A DNA stretch of 20,282 nucleotides, taken from IMG/VR virus record IMGVR_UViG_3300048016_000374, positions 1 through 20,282 of that record; one strand, 5' to 3'. Shown here one piece after another: positions 1,431 to 20,282 of the stretch (the stretch's first letter is position 1; each line of letters opens with the position of its first letter). The translations under genes and the position numbers were made by a program. Source of the stretch: a virus. Below the pieces are notes generated by a model. The model ran no database searches and was not told the DNA's origin. It worked only from the letters and a program-made list of their open reading frames with translations.

Positions 1431-2102
1431 ATGATTTTTATAGAGAAAATACCGATTAATGAACGAGTTTACGTTAAAAATGAAATAAATTCTATTTGTT
1501 CAGATTTAGGCATAAAAAACCCTGATTGGTTGAGTATTATTATTTATCGTGAGTCGGTTTGGAATCCGAAAGCAAAAGCAAAAACAAGTACAGCAACAGG
1601 ATTAATACAGTTTTTGGAAGCGACTGCAAAGAATTTAGGTACATCAACGGCAAAATTATCAACTATGACAATTAGCCAACAATTACCGTTTGTTCGTGAA
1701 TATTTCAAAAGAATGATACGACAATACGGCAAGCCTAAAAGTTTGTATCAAGCCTATTTGTTAGTTCATTATCCAGCAAGTTCTAAAAAAGGATTCACGG
1801 ACAAAATTTACAGTTCGCCATCGTTGGCATATTCAGCAAATAAAGCCTTAGATAAAGCAAAAAAGGGATATGTAAGCGGTCAAGATATTGAGAATTTTTT
1901 AACCAATAATTTGCCAGGAACTTACGACCCAAATAGAACGGTAAACACGCAAATTTTAGGCATTGATAAGAATTACATTTTATACGGTGCTTTATTCATA
2001 GTTCTTGCAACGTTTTTATATAATCCTTCTTATTGGTTAAGTCAAATCACTACAATTTTTAAAAACATCAAACTTTTTTTCACTCGTAAACGGTTCGCAT
2101 AA
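1431..2102 (+). CDS. Membrane-anchored lytic transglycosylase (SLT fold)
   Basis: The product has 223 residues with an N-terminal SLT-type domain. Glu41 lies in YRESVWNP, the canonical ES motif, and TGLIQF is at 56-61. A linker follows, then a C-terminal hydrophobic segment near 182-200 and a basic tail ending TRKRFA. The positive-inside rule would place the enzyme on the outer or periplasmic face. It is paralogous to the upstream gene but has the membrane anchor that copy lacks. The stop overlaps the next ATG (TAATG), which indicates translational coupling. A membrane-held muralytic enzyme in a tailless phage is expected to open peptidoglycan during genome delivery; that use is inference. 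Confidence 0.85.
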   Translation: MIFIEKIPINERVYVKNEINSICSDLGIKNPDWLSIIIYRESVWNPKAKAKTSTATGLIQFLEATAKNLGTSTAKLSTMTISQQLPFVREYFKRMIRQYGKPKSLYQAYLLVHYPASSKKGFTDKIYSSPSLAYSANKALDKAKKGYVSGQDIENFLTNNLPGTYDPNRTVNTQILGIDKNYILYGALFIVLATFLYNPSYWLSQITTIFKNIKLFFTRKRFA

Positions 2103-2702: not shown

Positions 2703-3166
2703 TGTTTATAATCGGATTCAGGCATAAATTAGCAAACAATGACGTGAAAAGCCATGCCATGAGTTTATTGCTAAATTCAGATATAGTACATTGTGAATTA
2801 ATATTTTCAGATAAAAAAGTCGGGTCTTCTTGTCAATGGTTAGGCGTTGGGATTTTCAATAAAGACGAAAACCGTAACCCGAAACATTGGGAGTTTTACG
2901 AAATTCCTTCTTTTTACGAAGAAAAAGCGAGGGAATACATCCAACGGAAAGAGGGATTAAAATATAATTGGGCGGGAATATTCGGGCAAATGTTAATGCC
3001 AATAGGTTTAAATTCAGACGGTTTTTGTTGTGCAGATTTATGCTATTTGGCATTAAAAAAAGCAGGTTTACCATTACCAAATTTTAACCCCGAAAGTCTT
3101 GCCCCGAGTGATATTTTAATGATGATTAAGCAATTAAATTTAAACAAAATTTACAATGTTCAATAA
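2702..3166 (+). CDS. Permuted papain-fold (NlpC/P60-like) hydrolase
   Basis: The product has 154 residues. The circularly permuted NlpC/P60 arrangement is visible: an early His in a strand (His30 in IVHCELIFSD), then a later nucleophile Cys at the start of a helix (Cys109/Cys110 in GFCCADLCYLAL). The second of these matches the C-S/A-E/D pattern of YiiX/LRAT-like members. Such proteins are thiol hydrolases acting on peptides, amides or lipids. Lying directly after transglycosylase and holin-like genes, it could be a peptidoglycan endopeptidase or an acyl hydrolase. No signal peptide or TM segment is seen. The gene overlaps the next one by 11 bases. Confidence 0.65.
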   Translation: MFIIGFRHKLANNDVKSHAMSLLLNSDIVHCELIFSDKKVGSSCQWLGVGIFNKDENRNPKHWEFYEIPSFYEEKAREYIQRKEGLKYNWAGIFGQMLMPIGLNSDGFCCADLCYLALKKAGLPLPNFNPESLAPSDILMMIKQLNLNKIYNVQ

Positions 3167-8250: not shown

Positions 8251-9378
8251 TCACATCAAATGTGATAAACCCCTTAAAACCGTATCAGGGAACATTTTAG
8301 CGTAGTACATTTGAGTAGTTTTTACGCTCGAATGACCTAAAAAAGCCTGTACAACCTCAATCGGTACATTATTATTCAGTAGATAACTACCAGCGGTTTT
8401 TCTACCTGTTTTGGTTGTTAATGCAAAGTCAAGGTTAAGCCATTGCCCAAAGGTTTTTAAAGTACGGTTAAAATGTTGGTTGCTGCATTGCGGTAAATCA
8501 TACTGATATTTTTCTAAAATCCGTTTCGCCTCTGGAAGTAATGGAACGATACGAGTATTATCGTTTTTTCCTCTATTCAAATCAATCAAACTGTTTTTAA
8601 TATCTGTTTTTGGGTTGAACTCCGCAAAGTCGCAATAATCAAAACCAGTATAACAGATAAATAAAAATAAGTCTCTAATTAAATCCAAGTTCCCAGACAA
8701 AGACCAGGAGGAAATTAATTTAAGATGTTGATTTTCTAAGCATTGAATTTCTTTTGAGCGACTACGTTTTAACTCACATAATCGAATCGGATTATTAGGT
8801 ATAATTTTTTGAGACACAGCCCAATCAACAACCGTAGAAATACTTTTTGCGTGCCTTACAGAGTGGTCGTTTCCAATATGTTTAACCGTTATCAGAAACG
8901 TGTAAAACTCATTACCAAACTTTTCAGAAATTTCATTAATAGGGATTTTTTCATTAAAATCTATCAAATGATTTTTCAGCGATTGCCATTTTACCAGCGT
9001 TCCTTTGGATAATGCTTTGGGCGTTCCGTCGAATTCACGTTTTACGGTATCAATATACGTTTGGAGAACATCGTGAAGAAATGGAAGGGGTAAATCTTTT
9101 TTGATGTAGCGATTAATAACTTCTTTACTCGTAATATTTTCATTACGAATAATTATTTCTTGAATTTGGGCGTAAATATTCCCTAATAATTCATTGTCAA
9201 GGCTTGTTTGTTTTGAATAGCCTTTAATTCGTTGTTTTTCAAGATTCCAATTTTCAGCAGGAATTTTTAAGCCTGTGGCAAAATCACATACTTGTTTGTT
9301 GATTTTAACACGGCAAGAGATTGGGGTTAATCCTTTTCGAGTGTTTTGGTATCTTAGCCAAAAATTGATAGAGAACAT
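8251..9378 (-). CDS. int: Tyrosine recombinase / phage integrase
   Basis: The product has 375 residues with the three-part plan of Bacteroidota integrases. An arm-type DNA-binding N-terminus (about 1-55) includes WLRYQNTRKGLTPISCRV. A SAM-like core-binding domain covers about 95-200. The catalytic domain has Arg326 (GRKTAGSYLL), His349 (LGHSS) and nucleophile Tyr358 (TTQMYY). The Arg I position is Asp247 in CYTGFDYCDF; replacement of Arg I is known in this phylum (IntDOT has Ser), so this does not imply inactivity. The usual His at the HxxR position is Lys323. It probably catalyses site-specific integration at the attP region directly upstream (9431-9678) and excision from it. Confidence 0.9.
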   Translation of the reverse strand: MFSINFWLRYQNTRKGLTPISCRVKINKQVCDFATGLKIPAENWNLEKQRIKGYSKQTSLDNELLGNIYAQIQEIIIRNENITSKEVINRYIKKDLPLPFLHDVLQTYIDTVKREFDGTPKALSKGTLVKWQSLKNHLIDFNEKIPINEISEKFGNEFYTFLITVKHIGNDHSVRHAKSISTVVDWAVSQKIIPNNPIRLCELKRSRSKEIQCLENQHLKLISSWSLSGNLDLIRDLFLFICYTGFDYCDFAEFNPKTDIKNSLIDLNRGKNDNTRIVPLLPEAKRILEKYQYDLPQCSNQHFNRTLKTFGQWLNLDFALTTKTGRKTAGSYLLNNNVPIEVVQAFLGHSSVKTTQMYYAKMFPDTVLRGLSHLM

Positions 9379-9538
9379 AAGCCTTTTTTTACGACTTGCA
9401 TAGAAATTTATTTATAAGGGTTGAAAATATAGTACATCAAATAAAAATCATACCATACTGTAGTACATCCTTATAAAACTATGAAAATCAAATGATTGTG
9501 ATAAATGCGAGAAAAAAGGGGGAAGGGTATAAAAAGCA

Positions 9539-9561
9539 AAAACCGCTTTAAAGGCGGTTTT
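9539..9561 (-). terminator. Terminator for the repressor gene
   Basis: AAAACCGC (9539-9546) pairs with GCGGTTTT (9554-9561). On the minus strand the stem is followed by a T-rich run (TTTTTGCTTTTT), so it ends leftward transcripts from the repressor gene before the integrase. Confidence 0.65.
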
Positions 9562-9676: not shown

Positions 9677-10039
9677 TCACTTTGCACAAAAAAAATACTG
9701 ATTGGCTAATGTGTACGGTTTAAACTTTCCCAAACTCAAATTTGAAATCGTAGATAACAGATTTTCAATTGTCCTTCTATATCCATCTTCTTTTTGATTC
9801 CACTCTAAACTTTTTTGTTCCCAAAAATCAAGTTTTGAATTAACATTATCATTGAAAATATCAACATTAATGTTTAAAGCCTTTGCAAATTTCTCCCTTG
9901 TACTATGTTTGGTTGTGTCTCTTTGTAACTGCTGATTATATGCCTGTATTGTAATTCCAAGCCTTTCGCTAACCATTTTATGAGTAAGTTTTTTGTCTTT
10001 TCTCATTTCTTCTTCGACAACATTTCTTAAAGTTTTCAT
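9677..10039 (-). CDS. HTH repressor-like protein
   Basis: The product has 120 residues. The N-terminal two-thirds hold an Xre-type helix-turn-helix (about 17-62). It includes KMVSERLGITIQAYNQQLQ and the LNINVDIF segment typical after the recognition helices. The rest is helical and probably a dimerisation region. There is no peptidase domain, so it is not a LexA/cI self-cleaving type. It lies divergent from the early gene at 10237 with a 197-base AT-rich gap between them, the usual layout of a phage immunity region. Its 3' end overlaps an integrase arm-like repeat. The role as prophage repressor is inferred from fold and position. Confidence 0.75.
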   Translation of the reverse strand: MKTLRNVVEEEMRKDKKLTHKMVSERLGITIQAYNQQLQRDTTKHSTREKFAKALNINVDIFNDNVNSKLDFWEQKSLEWNQKEDGYRRTIENLLSTISNLSLGKFKPYTLANQYFFCAK

Positions 10040-10236
10040 TTTTTTAAATAAAAATGTTTAAAATTAATTTTTTATTTTAAATATTAATGTTTAGTATTGC
10101 ATCATAATTCGTTTCAGATTACACTAAATACAGTTTCAAATGTAACGAAAAGTAAATAAAAAGTATATAAAATATTGCTAAATATTATTAAGTGGTAATA
10201 TTAATTATAAAATTCACAACCATTAAAAACAAGAAA
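10040..10236. promoter_or_regulatory. Divergent immunity/control region
   Basis: This AT-rich region between repressor and early gene contains direct repeats AATGTTTA (10053-10060, 10086-10093) and an inverted repeat AATATTA/TAATATT (10181-10187, 10196-10202). A minus-strand TACATTTG (10137-10144) matches TAnnTTTG for the repressor, about 98 bases upstream of its start. Operators are plausible here but are not proved in such AT-rich DNA. Confidence 0.45.
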
Positions 10237-10552: not shown

Positions 10553-10639
10553 ATGGTTGTTTTATTAGTGTTCGGATTTTTGACAATAGGTATCTTGATT
10601 AGTTGGATTTATGAAAAAATCAACGAAAAAGTACCGTAA
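10553..10639 (+). CDS. 28-aa hydrophobic micropeptide candidate
   Basis: This frame of 28 codons encodes a hydrophobic stretch (VVLLVFGFLTIGILISWIY) and a short charged tail (EKINEKVP). It lies 28 bases after the early gene and ends 34 bases before a terminator hairpin, so it would share that transcript. Length alone gives little support; the membrane-like composition and position are the evidence. Confidence 0.4.
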   Translation: MVVLLVFGFLTIGILISWIYEKINEKVP

Positions 10640-10673
10640 TAGATATTTTAATAGTGGTTAGGTTTTGATTAAT

Positions 10674-10700
10674 AGCGGGTGAAATTCACCCGCTTATTAT
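10674..10700 (+). terminator. Hairpin, probable terminator of the early transcript
   Basis: AGCGGGTGAA (10674-10683) pairs perfectly with TTCACCCGCT (10685-10694), followed by TATTATTAT rather than a pure T run. It is strong in pairing but weak in the T tract, so it could also be a structural element of the noncoding region that follows. Confidence 0.55.
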
Positions 10701-10860
10701 TATACCAGCCAGAAAGATAAACCATAGGATAGTGTATTGCAGGGGTGCAATACATGAGCGTAATGGTTCGGGTGTAGATGGGTGTTGTAGGTCAGTACGT
10801 TGCACACTCTGACAGTAAAATAAGGCAACATTTTTTTTAATCACATTAATTTACTTCACC
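10700..10860. other. Structured noncoding region
   Basis: There is no credible gene here. It holds a perfect 9-bp hairpin with GGGG loop (10733-10741 with 10746-10754, TGTATTGCA/TGCAATACA). A G-rich strand follows, then GTCAG/CTGAC complementary ends around 10792-10813. It could be part of a replication origin, a leader or a small RNA. Confidence 0.45.
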
Positions 10861-11130
10861 ATGTCAAGTCTCAAAAGAATTAATGATAAGTCAGTAATCA
10901 AGGAAGATTTAGAATACTTGATTGCTCTGCATAATGCAGTATCAAAGGCAAAGATTGACCACGACAGAACCAGCATTGAACCAGCGGTTGAATTGCTAAA
11001 AAAAATAGGTTGTATTGAACGAATGATGAAAAGGCACAAAAATATTTTAGAGTGTGGTTTTCACGACAAAGAACTAACAGCCTATTTGCCCGCAAATGGG
11101 ATTGGTAACGTCTCTTTATTTTCAGAATAA
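10861..11130 (+). CDS. 89-aa helical protein, unknown
   Basis: The product has 89 residues, is mostly helical by composition, and has charged N-terminal helices (KRINDKSVIKEDLEYLIALHNAVSKAK) and two Cys. There is no TM segment or recognised domain. It stands alone between two hairpin-rich noncoding regions and upstream of rep, so a role in replication control or as an early accessory protein is possible. I cannot assign a family. Confidence 0.65.
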   Translation: MSSLKRINDKSVIKEDLEYLIALHNAVSKAKIDHDRTSIEPAVELLKKIGCIERMMKRHKNILECGFHDKELTAYLPANGIGNVSLFSE

Positions 11131-11425
11131 ATCAAAACATTGGGGGTGTCTGCTTGAAAATCAAGCTCAATTTTTTATTCATTGGGGAATGAATAAGGAA
11201 AAGTAAACACAGTGATAATCTTGCACACATCCCAATACCTTTTATCATACTATGACAACTATCTTAATTATCCTTTTTGTGCTTTTTACGAAGGTTACAG
11301 GCTTTAAAAAGTCTCAATTTAATCCTACGTTACGATAAAAAATGAACGTCTAAAATCGGACGTTTAACCCTCACTTGATAAATATAGAAACATCTTTCGA
11401 GATGGACTAAAATCACCCTTACAAA
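11131..11425. other. Hairpin-rich noncoding region upstream of rep; origin candidate
   Basis: ATTGGG near 11139 can pair with CCCAAT near 11231. Nested inside are GCTTGA/TCAAGC (from about 11152) and TATTCATT/AATGAATA with a GGGG loop (11176-11183, 11188-11195). Further on, AACGTC/GACGTT (11345-11350, 11359-11364) is followed by CTTGATA at 11374-11380. That heptamer matches the core of the pC194/pUB110-type nick site TCTTGATA. Apart from a 28-codon frame at 11252-11338, no gene is seen. Confidence 0.5.
11252..11338 (+). CDS. 28-aa micropeptide candidate
   Basis: This frame of 28 codons has a hydrophobic first half (TTILIILFVLFT) and a basic second half (KVTGFKKSQFNPTLR). Like the one at 10553 it has exactly 28 codons and a membrane-like start. 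It lies in otherwise noncoding origin-like DNA, so translation is doubtful. Confidence 0.25.
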   Translation: MTTILIILFVLFTKVTGFKKSQFNPTLR

Positions 11426-13021
11426 ATGCAAGAACCAATACAATTAACCGATAATCAAAAAACGATAAATAAGTTATCGAAATTTGGCTTTACGGTTCGG
11501 AATAAGGCATTATCCAATAAAAAGTTAATTAATGCTATTGATGATTATTTGTTAGGGTTTAACATAGAGTTACCAGCGTTCAAATCGGATTACGAAAGAT
11601 TAAGAGAAACGATTTACGATTATGATACATATGGAGATGGTTTAGAATCGAAATTAGAGGAAATTGTAAAATTGAGGTATGCAATAGGAAACACAAAAGG
11701 ATATTATGCTATGTTTTCAGCAGGAAATCAAAAAGTATTGCAACCAATGGCGTTTTGGTACTCAAAACACCGCTTATGTAGTGTTTGGAATTGGAGAAAG
11801 AGCCAAATAATCAGAAGCAAATATCGTGATTTTCTGACGGATGCGACCGATGGCATGGGAAACAAACTAATTAATCATTATTTACCGATTCACTTAGTTT
11901 TAACAGTTCCTCACAAAAACGGACTTTTCAATGGAAAAAGATTTTACGCCAAAGAACTGATTGAAGCGTTTACGGCAATGCGAAAAACCGAAATTTGGAA
12001 AAAGTACATTTATGCAGGTGAATATGGAATTGAGGTGAAAAAGAATGAGGAAAACGGTTTACATATTCATATTCACAGTTTTTTACTCCAAAAACCCGAA
12101 TTTTCAATTATTGAAGTAGAAAGCGAAATTACTCAATTATGGAAATTATACATAGGAAACGAAACCACATTCAGCGGAATTCATTACGAAGGTTTATATC
12201 TGCATAAACGAGACGAAAACGGCAAAAAAAATACTGAGGAAAAGTTAGTTTATGACAAAAAAATAGGATTGAAAGTATTAAAACAAGTTCCTGTTAAACA
12301 ATACATTGACCCAAAAACAGCGGATATAAACCAATATTTAAGCGGTGTTTTAGAGTGCATCAAGTATCATTTTAAGCCCGATTGTATTCAGATCGAAAAC
12401 GGCAAGTACGATATGGAATTGATTGAGGATATTTTGAATAATACGAAGAACAAACGCCTGTATTCTCGTTTTGGCAAGTTCTACAATGTAAAGGAATTGA
12501 ACTTTAACAATCTTGAAAAAGAGGAAGAAACGGACGTTTTAGAGGACGAATTGACCACCACCAGCACGGACGGAGTAGAAGAAAGAGTAATTAACCCGAT
12601 TACCTTAGAAAAATGCAGTAAACGGACTGATTACGAGATTGTTATAAGTAACCCTTTATCAGTACGTTACCGAGAAAAAACAAGCCGTAAACCGTTAGAA
12701 TCATACATTTACAATACAAAAGGATTACGGATTGCAGACCAATGTTTGAACCTTAAACAAGTCATCCGTTTGGATATGATAGGTTTACCAATTACGGGTT
12801 TTGGTCAAGAAGTTGTTACTAAAATGGATTTCGATAAAATTTTAGCCGTAAACACTCATAAGGACAAAATTAGAGAACAGGCACAAGCAATTTTAAAAAC
12901 GTATCAAGATTTTCCAGAAATCGAAAATTACAATTCGATTCAAGTTTTTAATAAATCAGTTGCCAAAGAAAAGGACGAAATAGAAAAAGAATTTGGAGCG
13001 TATAAAACAGTTGAATTTTAA
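11426..13021 (+). CDS. rep: HUH rolling-circle replication initiator (Rep)
   Basis: The product has 531 residues. The HUH motif is HIHIH at 213-217 (GLHIHIHSF). Motif I is HLVLTVPH (156-163). The nicking Tyr is probably Tyr314 in CIKYHFKP, the KYxxKP form of Rep_1/pC194-type plasmid initiators with a single Tyr. Upstream, HRLCSVWNWRK (115-125) is a decayed version of the C-R-CP-C-WR block of that family. A long C-terminal region (about 320-531) has an acidic low-complexity linker near 365-390 and no helicase motifs, so a host helicase would be needed. The enzyme nicks one strand at the double-strand origin and starts rolling-circle synthesis. Confidence 0.9.
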   Translation: MQEPIQLTDNQKTINKLSKFGFTVRNKALSNKKLINAIDDYLLGFNIELPAFKSDYERLRETIYDYDTYGDGLESKLEEIVKLRYAIGNTKGYYAMFSAGNQKVLQPMAFWYSKHRLCSVWNWRKSQIIRSKYRDFLTDATDGMGNKLINHYLPIHLVLTVPHKNGLFNGKRFYAKELIEAFTAMRKTEIWKKYIYAGEYGIEVKKNEENGLHIHIHSFLLQKPEFSIIEVESEITQLWKLYIGNETTFSGIHYEGLYLHKRDENGKKNTEEKLVYDKKIGLKVLKQVPVKQYIDPKTADINQYLSGVLECIKYHFKPDCIQIENGKYDMELIEDILNNTKNKRLYSRFGKFYNVKELNFNNLEKEEETDVLEDELTTTSTDGVEERVINPITLEKCSKRTDYEIVISNPLSVRYREKTSRKPLESYIYNTKGLRIADQCLNLKQVIRLDMIGLPITGFGQEVVTKMDFDKILAVNTHKDKIREQAQAILKTYQDFPEIENYNSIQVFNKSVAKEKDEIEKEFGAYKTVEF

Positions 13022-13343: not shown

Positions 13344-13730
13344 ATGCAAAAATTACAATTATCAGGAAAAGTACATTCAGTTTCAGAGGTTAATTTTATC
13401 GGTCAAAACAATACGAAAGTACAGCGTTTACGTTTGGATTGTACAGATAATCCAGAATACCCAAACATCCCAGAATTTCAAGCAATCGGAAAAAATGTAT
13501 CGTTATTAGCTTCTTTAAAAACAGGTGAAACCATACAAATAGGGTTTGTAATTGATGGCAGAGATTACGAAAAGGACGGAAAAAGAGGCGTAATTACAAA
13601 CCTCAATATTCTCGAAATCGGACGTTTGAGAACTGATTTTATCAAAGTTGAGGACGAACCCGAAACCAAAGAAATGCCAGCACCAGCGGCGGCAACAGGA
13701 CCAGCGAAAAATGACGATATTATATTTTAG
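13344..13730 (+). CDS. SSB-like OB-fold protein
   Basis: The product has 128 residues. The N-terminal part (about 1-95) has the alternating strand pattern of a small OB fold (LSGKVHSVSEVNF, KVQRLRLDCTD, ETIQIGFVIDGRDY). An Ala/Pro/Glu linker follows, then the acidic-hydrophobic tip NDDIIF, like the DDIPF tail by which SSBs recruit partners. Size and location directly after rep fit a protein coating displaced single strands in rolling-circle replication. It could alternatively belong to a Bacteroidota DUF with the same tail; I cannot separate these without a search. Confidence 0.7.
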   Translation: MQKLQLSGKVHSVSEVNFIGQNNTKVQRLRLDCTDNPEYPNIPEFQAIGKNVSLLASLKTGETIQIGFVIDGRDYEKDGKRGVITNLNILEIGRLRTDFIKVEDEPETKEMPAPAAATGPAKNDDIIF

Positions 13731-15913: not shown

Positions 15914-16523
15914 TTATTTAGCGGAGTTTACCGCCACAAATACAGGTTTGTTTGATGTTGAGGACGTTGCACAACCAGCAATAGAACTACTTCCAAACAG
16001 ACCAAACCAAGCACCAGCGGGCGGGGTTTTTGATAGGTTCATTCCTCAAAACGTTAGCCAGCCAAAACCCGAAATTTCAAATAGTGAGATAGAGGAATAC
16101 GCAAAAATTGAAGCGGATTGGATATTATCACAATTTCAAATGTTTGTAGGGTTGGGCAAAGGTGCAATTTCGGGCGTAATCTACAATTCAGACGATAAAC
16201 GATTACTGCAATCGTTAAGCGATAGCGGTCAAGGAAACAGCGAGGAAGCAAGGGAAATTTTAGAACGTTTTGAGATACAAAAAAGCCTTGAAAGTACAGG
16301 AATCAAGGATTACGAGACAAAAAGAAAAATATTTATTTCTGTAATCAAGTTGGATTTATTGAAGAAACAACGTGAAGGGAAACTCGAATTACCTTCAATT
16401 TCTCAATACTTATATAAAATGGTTGCCAGCGAATTAGTACAGATTACGGGCAACAATCCACGTATTTTTTCAACCATTGGCGAACGGTTACTGAATCTCA
16501 TTAAATCAAAATTACCGATATGA
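15900..16523 (+). CDS. Protein upstream of packaging ATPase, unknown
   Basis: The product has 207 residues. A Pro/Gln/Asn-rich N-terminus (about 25-60) is followed by a mainly helical domain (60-207), with a Gly-rich segment FVGLGKGAISGVIY near 82-95. There is no clear TM segment. It overlaps the previous gene by 14 bases, and its stop overlaps the ATPase start by 4 bases, so the two are probably made in fixed ratio and may interact. A packaging-vertex or assembly factor is a reasonable guess; no family is recognised. Confidence 0.7.
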   Translation: MQEFDYLAEFTATNTGLFDVEDVAQPAIELLPNRPNQAPAGGVFDRFIPQNVSQPKPEISNSEIEEYAKIEADWILSQFQMFVGLGKGAISGVIYNSDDKRLLQSLSDSGQGNSEEAREILERFEIQKSLESTGIKDYETKRKIFISVIKLDLLKKQREGKLELPSISQYLYKMVASELVQITGNNPRIFSTIGERLLNLIKSKLPI

Positions 16524-17215
16524 ACCCAAAAGGAAACGTTTGGTGGATTGGAGGGAAACGAGACACAGGTAAATCTTATGAATCCCTACAAATTGCCGAT
16601 TTCTTTCACCAACGAAAAGAAAACCCGAAAAGAGTAATCGTAATTGACCATACCAACAACGAAGATACTTATGGACATATCAAAAAAATCAAGTTATCGG
16701 ACTTAGATTTCAAGTTACCAGAAAAGGGTTATTTTCGGATTTGTCGAGAAGAAAACGAACCTAATTTTGATTTTAAAACCTGTTATCAAAAATTAGCAAA
16801 ATTAGCTAATACGGTAATTGATTTTGACGATGTTACAGGGGTTTTGCGAGGTACAGCACCAGCGGAATTGATGACACTTTGCGGATTAGCGAAAAATCAA
16901 AGGTTAGAATTAATCTTTCAATTTCACACCGTCACGGCTACTGCTCCTCAAATTATTGGAGTGTGCAATATGATTGTAGTCAAACAAACTAATGAGGATT
17001 TACCGCTGAAAGAATCATTCGTAAATAGTAGAATTGTAGGCGTTTTGATGCAGGAAATTAGAACGGAAAATAGAACGTATGACGACCGTAAAAAGTGGGC
17101 AACTCGCATTTTAGACGTTGATTTAGAAAAGATTTTCGTTAAAAATATCAATGGAAAATCTTACATAGATTGTTACAGAACAAAACCGAAAAATTTAGAA
17201 TCATATTTTAAATGA
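16520..17215 (+). CDS. Genome-packaging ATPase (A32/FtsK-HerA type)
   Basis: The product has 231 residues, the compact size of PRD1 P9 / PM2 P9 / A32-like ATPases. Walker A is GKRDTGKS (12-19). Walker B is TVIDFDD (98-104). The HerA-type glutamine after strand 4 is Gln134 in LIFQFHTV. No TM segment is present, unlike the Zot/pI proteins of filamentous phages, and there is no nuclease domain, unlike large terminases. It would drive DNA into preformed membrane-lined capsids. The stop overlaps the next ATG. This is the strongest marker that the element makes a tailless virion. Confidence 0.85.
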   Translation: MNPKGNVWWIGGKRDTGKSYESLQIADFFHQRKENPKRVIVIDHTNNEDTYGHIKKIKLSDLDFKLPEKGYFRICREENEPNFDFKTCYQKLAKLANTVIDFDDVTGVLRGTAPAELMTLCGLAKNQRLELIFQFHTVTATAPQIIGVCNMIVVKQTNEDLPLKESFVNSRIVGVLMQEIRTENRTYDDRKKWATRILDVDLEKIFVKNINGKSYIDCYRTKPKNLESYFK

Positions 17216-19656: not shown

Positions 19657-20282
19657 ATGTTTCAGCAAGGCACAGCCCTAAAAGCAATCAAGAAAGTAAG
19701 CCTTTACGAAAATATGGTTTACGATGAGGGAGGAAATACAGTAATTTCGCAAGGAACGCCATTTGCAAGTATTTCAGCGGGTGAACAAATTGGCATTGTG
19801 GAAGCAACATTTACACAGCAAAATTTTGTTTATGTTCAGTTATTCAAGCCAATAACCGTAAATCTAAAAAAGCGGTATTATGCTTTAATTTTCACGGATA
19901 ATATACAAGAATTACCCGCTAAAACGGCAAGTAGTGAAACGATTGAATACTTTGCAAAGTGCCAGCCTGATAGTTCGGTAAACATTCGTTTATCAGCAAG
20001 TTTAACAGGAACTGTAAAAGCAAAAGCCAAAAACGGCTCATTAATTGGGCGGAGTGATGGAAAGGTAGGAAACAACGGATTTTTAAAGTTTAATTTGGCT
20101 TTGGGCGGTGTTGGTTATGTTCATAAAGATTATGTAACAAAAACCAAGACAGCCGTAACAATCGAAAAAACGACCGAGAAAGTAACCGTTACGAATCCAT
20201 TGACAGGCAAAGACGAAGAAAAAGCACGTACAACTATTACAACAAATGAAGGTTGGACGGTTCAAGACGTTGTAATTAAAAC
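19657..20282 (+). CDS. N-terminal part of junction-spanning membrane-anchored protein
   Basis: The frame opens at ATG 19657 and stays open to the window end, continuing at 1-191 for a total of 229 residues. The N-terminal 150 residues are strand-rich, with SH3-like sections (VSLYENMVYDEGG, QNFVYVQLFKPI, LTGTVKAKAKNGSLIG). A Thr/Lys/Glu stretch, a C-terminal TM segment (about 207-225) and a basic tail follow. It starts 12 bases after a terminator T run with no visible promoter, so it probably depends on read-through from the capsid block. It is a minor virion membrane protein candidate; the specific role is unknown. Confidence 0.8.
   Translation, partial: MFQQGTALKAIKKVSLYENMVYDEGGNTVISQGTPFASISAGEQIGIVEATFTQQNFVYVQLFKPITVNLKKRYYALIFTDNIQELPAKTASSETIEYFAKCQPDSSVNIRLSASLTGTVKAKAKNGSLIGRSDGKVGNNGFLKFNLALGGVGYVHKDYVTKTKTAVTIEKTTEKVTVTNPLTGKDEEKARTTITTNEGWTVQDVVIK
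20156..20282. repeat. Terminal overlap of a circular sequence (right copy)
   Basis: This is identical to bases 1-127. See the left copy for the interpretation as a circle of about 20,155 bp. Confidence 0.9.

Follow-up and report, generated by a model that had tools for sequence, protein, structure and literature searches.

The window analyzed here (the whole 20,282-nucleotide stretch, IMG/VR record IMGVR_UViG_3300048016_000374) carries an identical terminal repeat of 127 bp at positions 1 to 127 and 20156 to 20282. Since the first and last 127 bases match, we read it as a circular genome, probably complete at 20,155 bp, with a G+C content of 34% and the majority of its genes on the plus strand. 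Two hairpins with GGGG loops lie between the gene for a helix-turn-helix protein and rep, in a region with the following features.

8251-9378, minus strand: tyrosine integrase.
9677-10039, minus strand: helix-turn-helix protein.
10674-10694, plus strand: P0, a 10-bp palindromic, terminator-like hairpin (AGCGGGTGAA-A-TTCACCCGCT), 25 nt 5' of element 1.
10719-10829, plus strand: element 1, two tandem hairpins (P1 with an internal loop, then P3) and a conserved GTAAAATAAGG tail.
10720-10768, plus strand: P1, with outer stem AACCAT/ATGGTT, internal loop (TA)GGATA / GCGTA, and the GGGG hairpin at 10733-10754 as inner stem.
10791-10813, plus strand: P3, hairpin GTCAG(13-nt loop)CTGAC.
10815-10825, plus strand: the GTAAAATAAGG tail, identical in the relative L022.
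10861-11130, plus strand: small protein of 89 amino acids, open frame, C terminus NVSLFSE.
11139-11236, plus strand: element 2, three stems (closing stem ATTGGG..GTGT / ACAC..CCCAAT, hairpin GCTTGA-AAA-TCAAGC, and the second GGGG hairpin at 11175-11196).
11252-11338, plus strand: tiny membrane-protein open reading frame (ORF) (MTTILIILFVLFTKVTGFKKSQFNPTLR), with a similar tiny ORF after element 2 in L022.
11345-11364, plus strand: putative double-strand-origin (dso) hairpin AACGTC-TAAAATCG-GACGTT, at the same place with different sequence in five genomes.
11368-11389, plus strand: putative Rep nick site CCCTCACTTG^ATAAATATAGAA, with the predicted nick between 11377 and 11378.
11426-13021, plus strand: Rep, 531 amino acids, HUH endonuclease of the Rep_1/pC194 type (HLVLTVPH, GLHIHIHS, ECIKYHFKP; Pfam Rep_1, E 8.6e-11).
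13344-13730, plus strand: single-stranded-DNA-binding protein (SSB; PHROG 4932, E 7e-7; Pfam DUF3127).

The virus is most likely a temperate, circular, rolling-circle-replicating virus of Bacteroidota. Rep matches Pfam PF01446 above the cut-off, and the spacing of its E310 and Y314 equals that of Glu210 and Tyr214 in pC194. In a genome scan, Siphonobacter aquaeclarae (L002) turned up with a Rep about 50% identical to the window Rep. Profile searches of the Siphonobacter order and family extended the list by G101 (L011), G115 (L012), and G429 (L022). They also gave Reps of greater divergence in G048 (L013) and G137 (L014), and copies that are broken or partial in G514 and G194. The Reps of L022, L011, L012, and L002 share 47 to 51% identity with the window Rep, and these four loci and the window make up our five-genome set. 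In G514 (L023), broken remnants of a window-type Rep lie in a 10-Mb chromosome. No relatives of Rep were found among the IMG/VR viral contigs, and none via the ATPase-like protein or via two nick-site patterns; the phage and plasmid collections gave no close relatives, just two weak plasmid Rep matches.

The initial annotation had reported two hairpins with the same GGGG loop on either side of the 10861-11130 gene, and both are exactly in place: TGTATTGCA-GGGG-TGCAATACA at 10733-10754 and TATTCATT-GGGG-AATGAATA at 11176-11195, the latter with a stem that extends to 9 bp (11175-11196). They exceed the shuffled background, with two perfect stems of at least 8 bp and a GGGG or CCCC loop in the window versus one in total in 40 whole-window dinucleotide shuffles and none in 300 shuffles of the region. 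For perfect stems of at least 8 bp with loops of 3 to 8, the script counts three in the region versus a shuffle mean of 0.13. The pairings ATTGGG (11139-11144) with CCCAAT (11231-11236) and GCTTGA-AAA-TCAAGC (11152-11166), described at the same time, are also there. The accompanying statement that none of the hairpins has a T run had to be dropped, since the palindrome at 10674-10694 (followed by TATTATTATA) and the hairpin at 11152-11166 (followed by TCAATTTTTT) have T-rich, terminator-like tails. The two GGGG hairpins are not twins, because they belong to different elements and their loop is mostly not conserved: of the four relatives with element 1, one retains it, and the single relative with element 2 does not. 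Their dissimilar flanks and the lack of loop conservation led us to reject a common origin of the two.

For element 1, conservation lies in the pairing. P1 takes the same form in all five genomes (outer stem, TAGGATA, inner stem, ACGTA, outer stem), with the internal-loop variants GCGTA in the window and GAGGGTG / AGCGTA in L002, while the outer stems read AACCAT/ATGGTT, AATCAG/CTGATT, ACCCCG/CGGGGT, ACCCTG/CAGGGT, and TCCCCT/AGGGGA. From an alignment made without structure, RNAalifold returned a P1 consensus of 18 pairs, in 10 of which both partners have changed. None of 500 shuffles matched any observed measure, and sliding the partners lowered the paired cells from 84% to 29-40%. The P1 fold was recovered independently in the minimum-energy structure of each genome and has G-U type pairs at two positions; for P1 of the window, the fold z is −5.4 as RNA and −5.8 as DNA. 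P3 has different letters at the same place, 17 to 25 nt after P1, in all five genomes (GTCAG/CTGAC in the window versus GTGTG/CACAC in L022), and the loop TGCAGGGGTGCA is common to these two genomes only. The alignments thus support the view that element 1 is a structured nucleic acid whose pairing persists while its letters change; covariation in related genomes had been proposed at the outset as the check on which the idea of a structured region depends, and the pairing is kept. The same controls bear on the view that all of these are chance structures or simple terminators, ordinary intergenic hairpins without a common function. P0 and the 11152-11166 hairpin do look like terminators, but for element 1 the hairpin shuffles and covariation controls contradict such an explanation, and we regard it as very improbable.

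By eye, L022, L011, L012, and L002 likewise have a hairpin 5' of element 1, but only those of the window and L022 look terminator-like. Just 5' of element 1, a tRNA T-arm-like sequence (GTTCGATTC) occurs on the minus strand of both L012 (about 9494-9545) and L011 (near 9985-10060), enclosed in L012 by a 7-bp acceptor-like stem (AACTGGA/TCCAGTT). ARAGORN found no tRNA or tmRNA in or near element 1 and did not call these T-arm-like stretches as tRNA.

A covariance model built from P1 of the five loci, the window included, scored 51 bits on the window P1 (E 1.9e-12), a value that is partly by construction given that the window is in the model. In a 154-kb sequence set, it picked out the five loci used in training, and no other sequence rose above background. 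Four strong matches among 222 family-level genomes were all known rep-linked loci (three further matches were weak), and among 385 order-level genomes the strong matches again lay only beside these rep genes, with one weak match in G375. Weak matches in G530, G531, and G427 were rejected, as they lie in or beside ordinary cellular genes with no rep nearby. The model did not match L013 or L014, which have the distant Reps, or the single-stranded DNA (ssDNA) phage FLiP.

Directly before rep, the five genomes read CCCTC(A/C)CT(T/C)GATAANNNTAGAA (consensus CCCTC(A/C)CT(T/C)GATAA...TAGAA), with 22 invariant columns in the alignment and a single match of the pattern per genome in each close relative. 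CTTGATA, found at 11374-11380 in the window and also in L022, is the reported nick site of Rep_1 initiators and plasmids (PMC10378824). The pC194-type origin employed in PMC7072734 has the sequence TTATCTTGATAATAAGGG, sharing CTTGATAATA with L022. Nick site and Rep belong to the known Rep_1/pC194 kind, and we infer from the sequence that Rep nicks at CTTG^ATA. The window resembles a pC194-type dso in its CTTGATA nick, nearby hairpin, adjoining Rep_1 gene, and E...Y spacing of four (PMC10378824, PMC5703833, PMC7072734), and differs in the longer conserved context CCCTC(A/C)...TAGAA and in the CTCGATA of three relatives (L002, L011, and L012). Similar nick-like sequences, CTCGATAATAATACAAACAAC and CTTGATAATATACGCAATAAC, occur in L013 (10985-11010) and L014 (5110-5135, reverse complement), in each case just within the 5' end of rep as annotated. 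Translation may therefore start downstream of the annotated start codons, or origin and coding sequence may overlap.

Element 1 lies 369 to 697 nt upstream of the putative nick site, on the same strand, in the five genomes. Single-strand origins (sso) are located upstream of the dso, are active only on the displaced strand, and need structure over sequence (PMC5703833, PMC4595007, PMC10378824). By analogy, the leading explanation, to which we give about even odds, is that element 1 acts on the displaced strand as the origin of the complementary strand (an sso), within a rolling-circle origin region. Rep would cut at CTTG^ATA on the rep-coding plus strand, shortly upstream of rep itself, and the nicked strand would be displaced rightwards, as in Rep_1 plasmids. 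Element 1 would then be exposed last, about 97% of the way round the circle, and fold into two hairpins, at which host RNA polymerase or primase could start the complementary strand. The small protein, with its clamp-like C terminus, and SSB may help to load the host polymerase.

Several observations fit an sso: the secondary structure is conserved in its pairing, it is upstream of the dso on the strand that would be displaced, and P1 folds well as DNA. The CS-6 sequence (TAGCGA/T), which applies to some sso types and is not defining for all, was not found in a hairpin loop; the window has only TAGCGG in a stem (10673-10678), and L022 has TAGCGA in P1. None of the known sso types matches element 1. 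The small protein belongs to no Pfam or PHROG family, and its C termini in the five genomes (SLFSE, EQSLFS, QLGLFGNS, NTLFPEE, or QLSLV) contain stretches (QLGLF, QLSLV, EQSLF, VSLF, and NTLF) that we take to resemble sliding-clamp-binding motifs (QLxLF-like), making recruitment of the host polymerase plausible. The suggestion of structured DNA or RNA in the initial annotation therefore stands insofar as the pairing of element 1 is conserved in relatives and the region is that of a rolling-circle origin, while the notion of a matched pair of hairpins falls away.

Element 2 has a homologue in L022 (2925-3016, minus strand; CTTGGA-AAA-TCCAAG and AATGTAA/TTACATT). Between the two, the small hairpin shows compensating changes (GCTTGA-AAA-TCAAGC versus CTTGGA-AAA-TCCAAG) and the closing stem is similar, whereas the third stem of L022 is different and has no GGGG loop. 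The three-stem fold is within 0.3 to 0.7 kcal/mol of the minimum in both genomes under constrained folding, and the fold z of the window element is −2.7 as RNA and −3.6 as DNA. As the MAFFT alignment misregisters the 3' half, we assessed the pairing manually and with the constrained folds. These two sequences suggest, tentatively, a conserved structure in element 2. Just 5' of it in L022 (about 3025-3095, minus strand), there is a third strong stem, TTTGGGGTTC / GAACCCCAAA, around GGCG/CGCC. Membrane peptides of 28 amino acids are encoded by tiny ORFs at 10553-10639 and 11252-11338, with near-origin counterparts in L022 and L002.

The placement of both elements brings in the main rival to an sso, namely, that they are structured mRNA 5' leaders or small RNAs controlling the small protein, the tiny membrane ORF, and rep through translation control, processing, or ligand sensing. 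Element 1 always directly precedes the small gene, ending 36 to 101 nt before its ATG in all five genomes, and element 2 precedes a tiny membrane ORF in the window and L022 despite its different position relative to rep. All genes there share one strand, the G-U type pairs in P1 are no less suited to RNA than to DNA, and a strongly conserved internal loop within covarying stems is typical of structured RNA. The total of five sequences and the shift of element 2 relative to rep also speak against an sso. On the other hand, no Rfam family matches, even at a relaxed threshold, and the small proteins that follow element 1 in the relatives are only 16 to 24% identical to that of the window. In the window and L022, a terminator-like hairpin lies 12 to 25 nt before element 1 with no promoter-like match between, which weighs slightly against a leader; the Bacteroidota promoter pattern TAnnTTTG had no match in the five regions, and promoters of this phylum are poorly modelled. 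We consider control of this kind possible, though somewhat doubtful. The structures lie on the strand that also has the mRNA sense, so the sequence is compatible with both an sso and a leader.

The hairpins could also serve as packaging signals on ssDNA in the virion, which we think improbable. It is in favor of such a role that the lytic protein of the window (1431-2102) is 40% identical across 130 residues to the virion lytic protein of FLiP, that inspection by eye shows a hairpin-rich intergenic stretch of 473 nt in FLiP, and that ssDNA genomes of the FLiP group may reach 17 kb (PMC5894146). However, the window encodes at 16520-17215 a protein that has a P-loop-like motif (GGKRDTGKS), whereas FLiP has no packaging ATPase (PMC7654751), and FLiP does not match the element 1 model. 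If packaged as ssDNA, the 20,155-bp genome would be larger than the 17 kb cited for the FLiP group. Finnlakeviridae (FLiP) and the PhiCjT23-like Flavobacterium ssDNA phages are like the window in their Bacteroidota hosts, circular genome, rolling-circle Rep, related lytic protein, and, for FLiP, hairpin-rich intergenic DNA. The window differs in a genome twice as large, in the lack of element 1 in FLiP, and in its Rep, whose motifs are not seen by eye in that of FLiP; a FLiP-sized capsid gene was not recognized in the window. Many small virion-type ORFs with one membrane segment each are present, an obvious double jelly-roll capsid gene was not found, and single-sequence structure prediction for one capsid candidate gave a poor model (pLDDT of 35).

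Returning to the sso, the closest known counterparts of element 1 are those of rolling-circle plasmids (ssoA, ssoU, ssoT, ssoW, and ssoL; palA) and sso1 of ICEBs1. These, too, are long folded stretches of the displaced strand, located upstream of the dso in the neighborhood of a rolling-circle rep gene, and keep structure over sequence (PMC5703833, PMC4595007). Element 1 differs from them in having no sequence match, no CS-6 in a loop, and a conserved TAGGATA/ACGTA internal loop. Its host phylum is Bacteroidota, versus Firmicutes for the known sso. Firmicutes plasmids have supplied most of the known single-strand origins, with a few coliphages adding to them, and the rolling-circle origin literature cited here describes none in Bacteroidota. 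Element 1 is best called a novel sso-like element, with a supported structure and an inferred function. It is a less likely, speculative prospect that it represents a new class of structured RNA, unrelated to Rfam families, that regulates the replication module of undescribed Bacteroidota rolling-circle viruses (or acts as both RNA leader and sso); some of these viruses would then have a second element independent of it. As a candidate defined by covariation beside a conserved nick site, element 1 offers a testable replication origin for an undescribed group of large, temperate rolling-circle viruses, and together with the nick site it may provide a portable origin for genetic tools in Bacteroidota.
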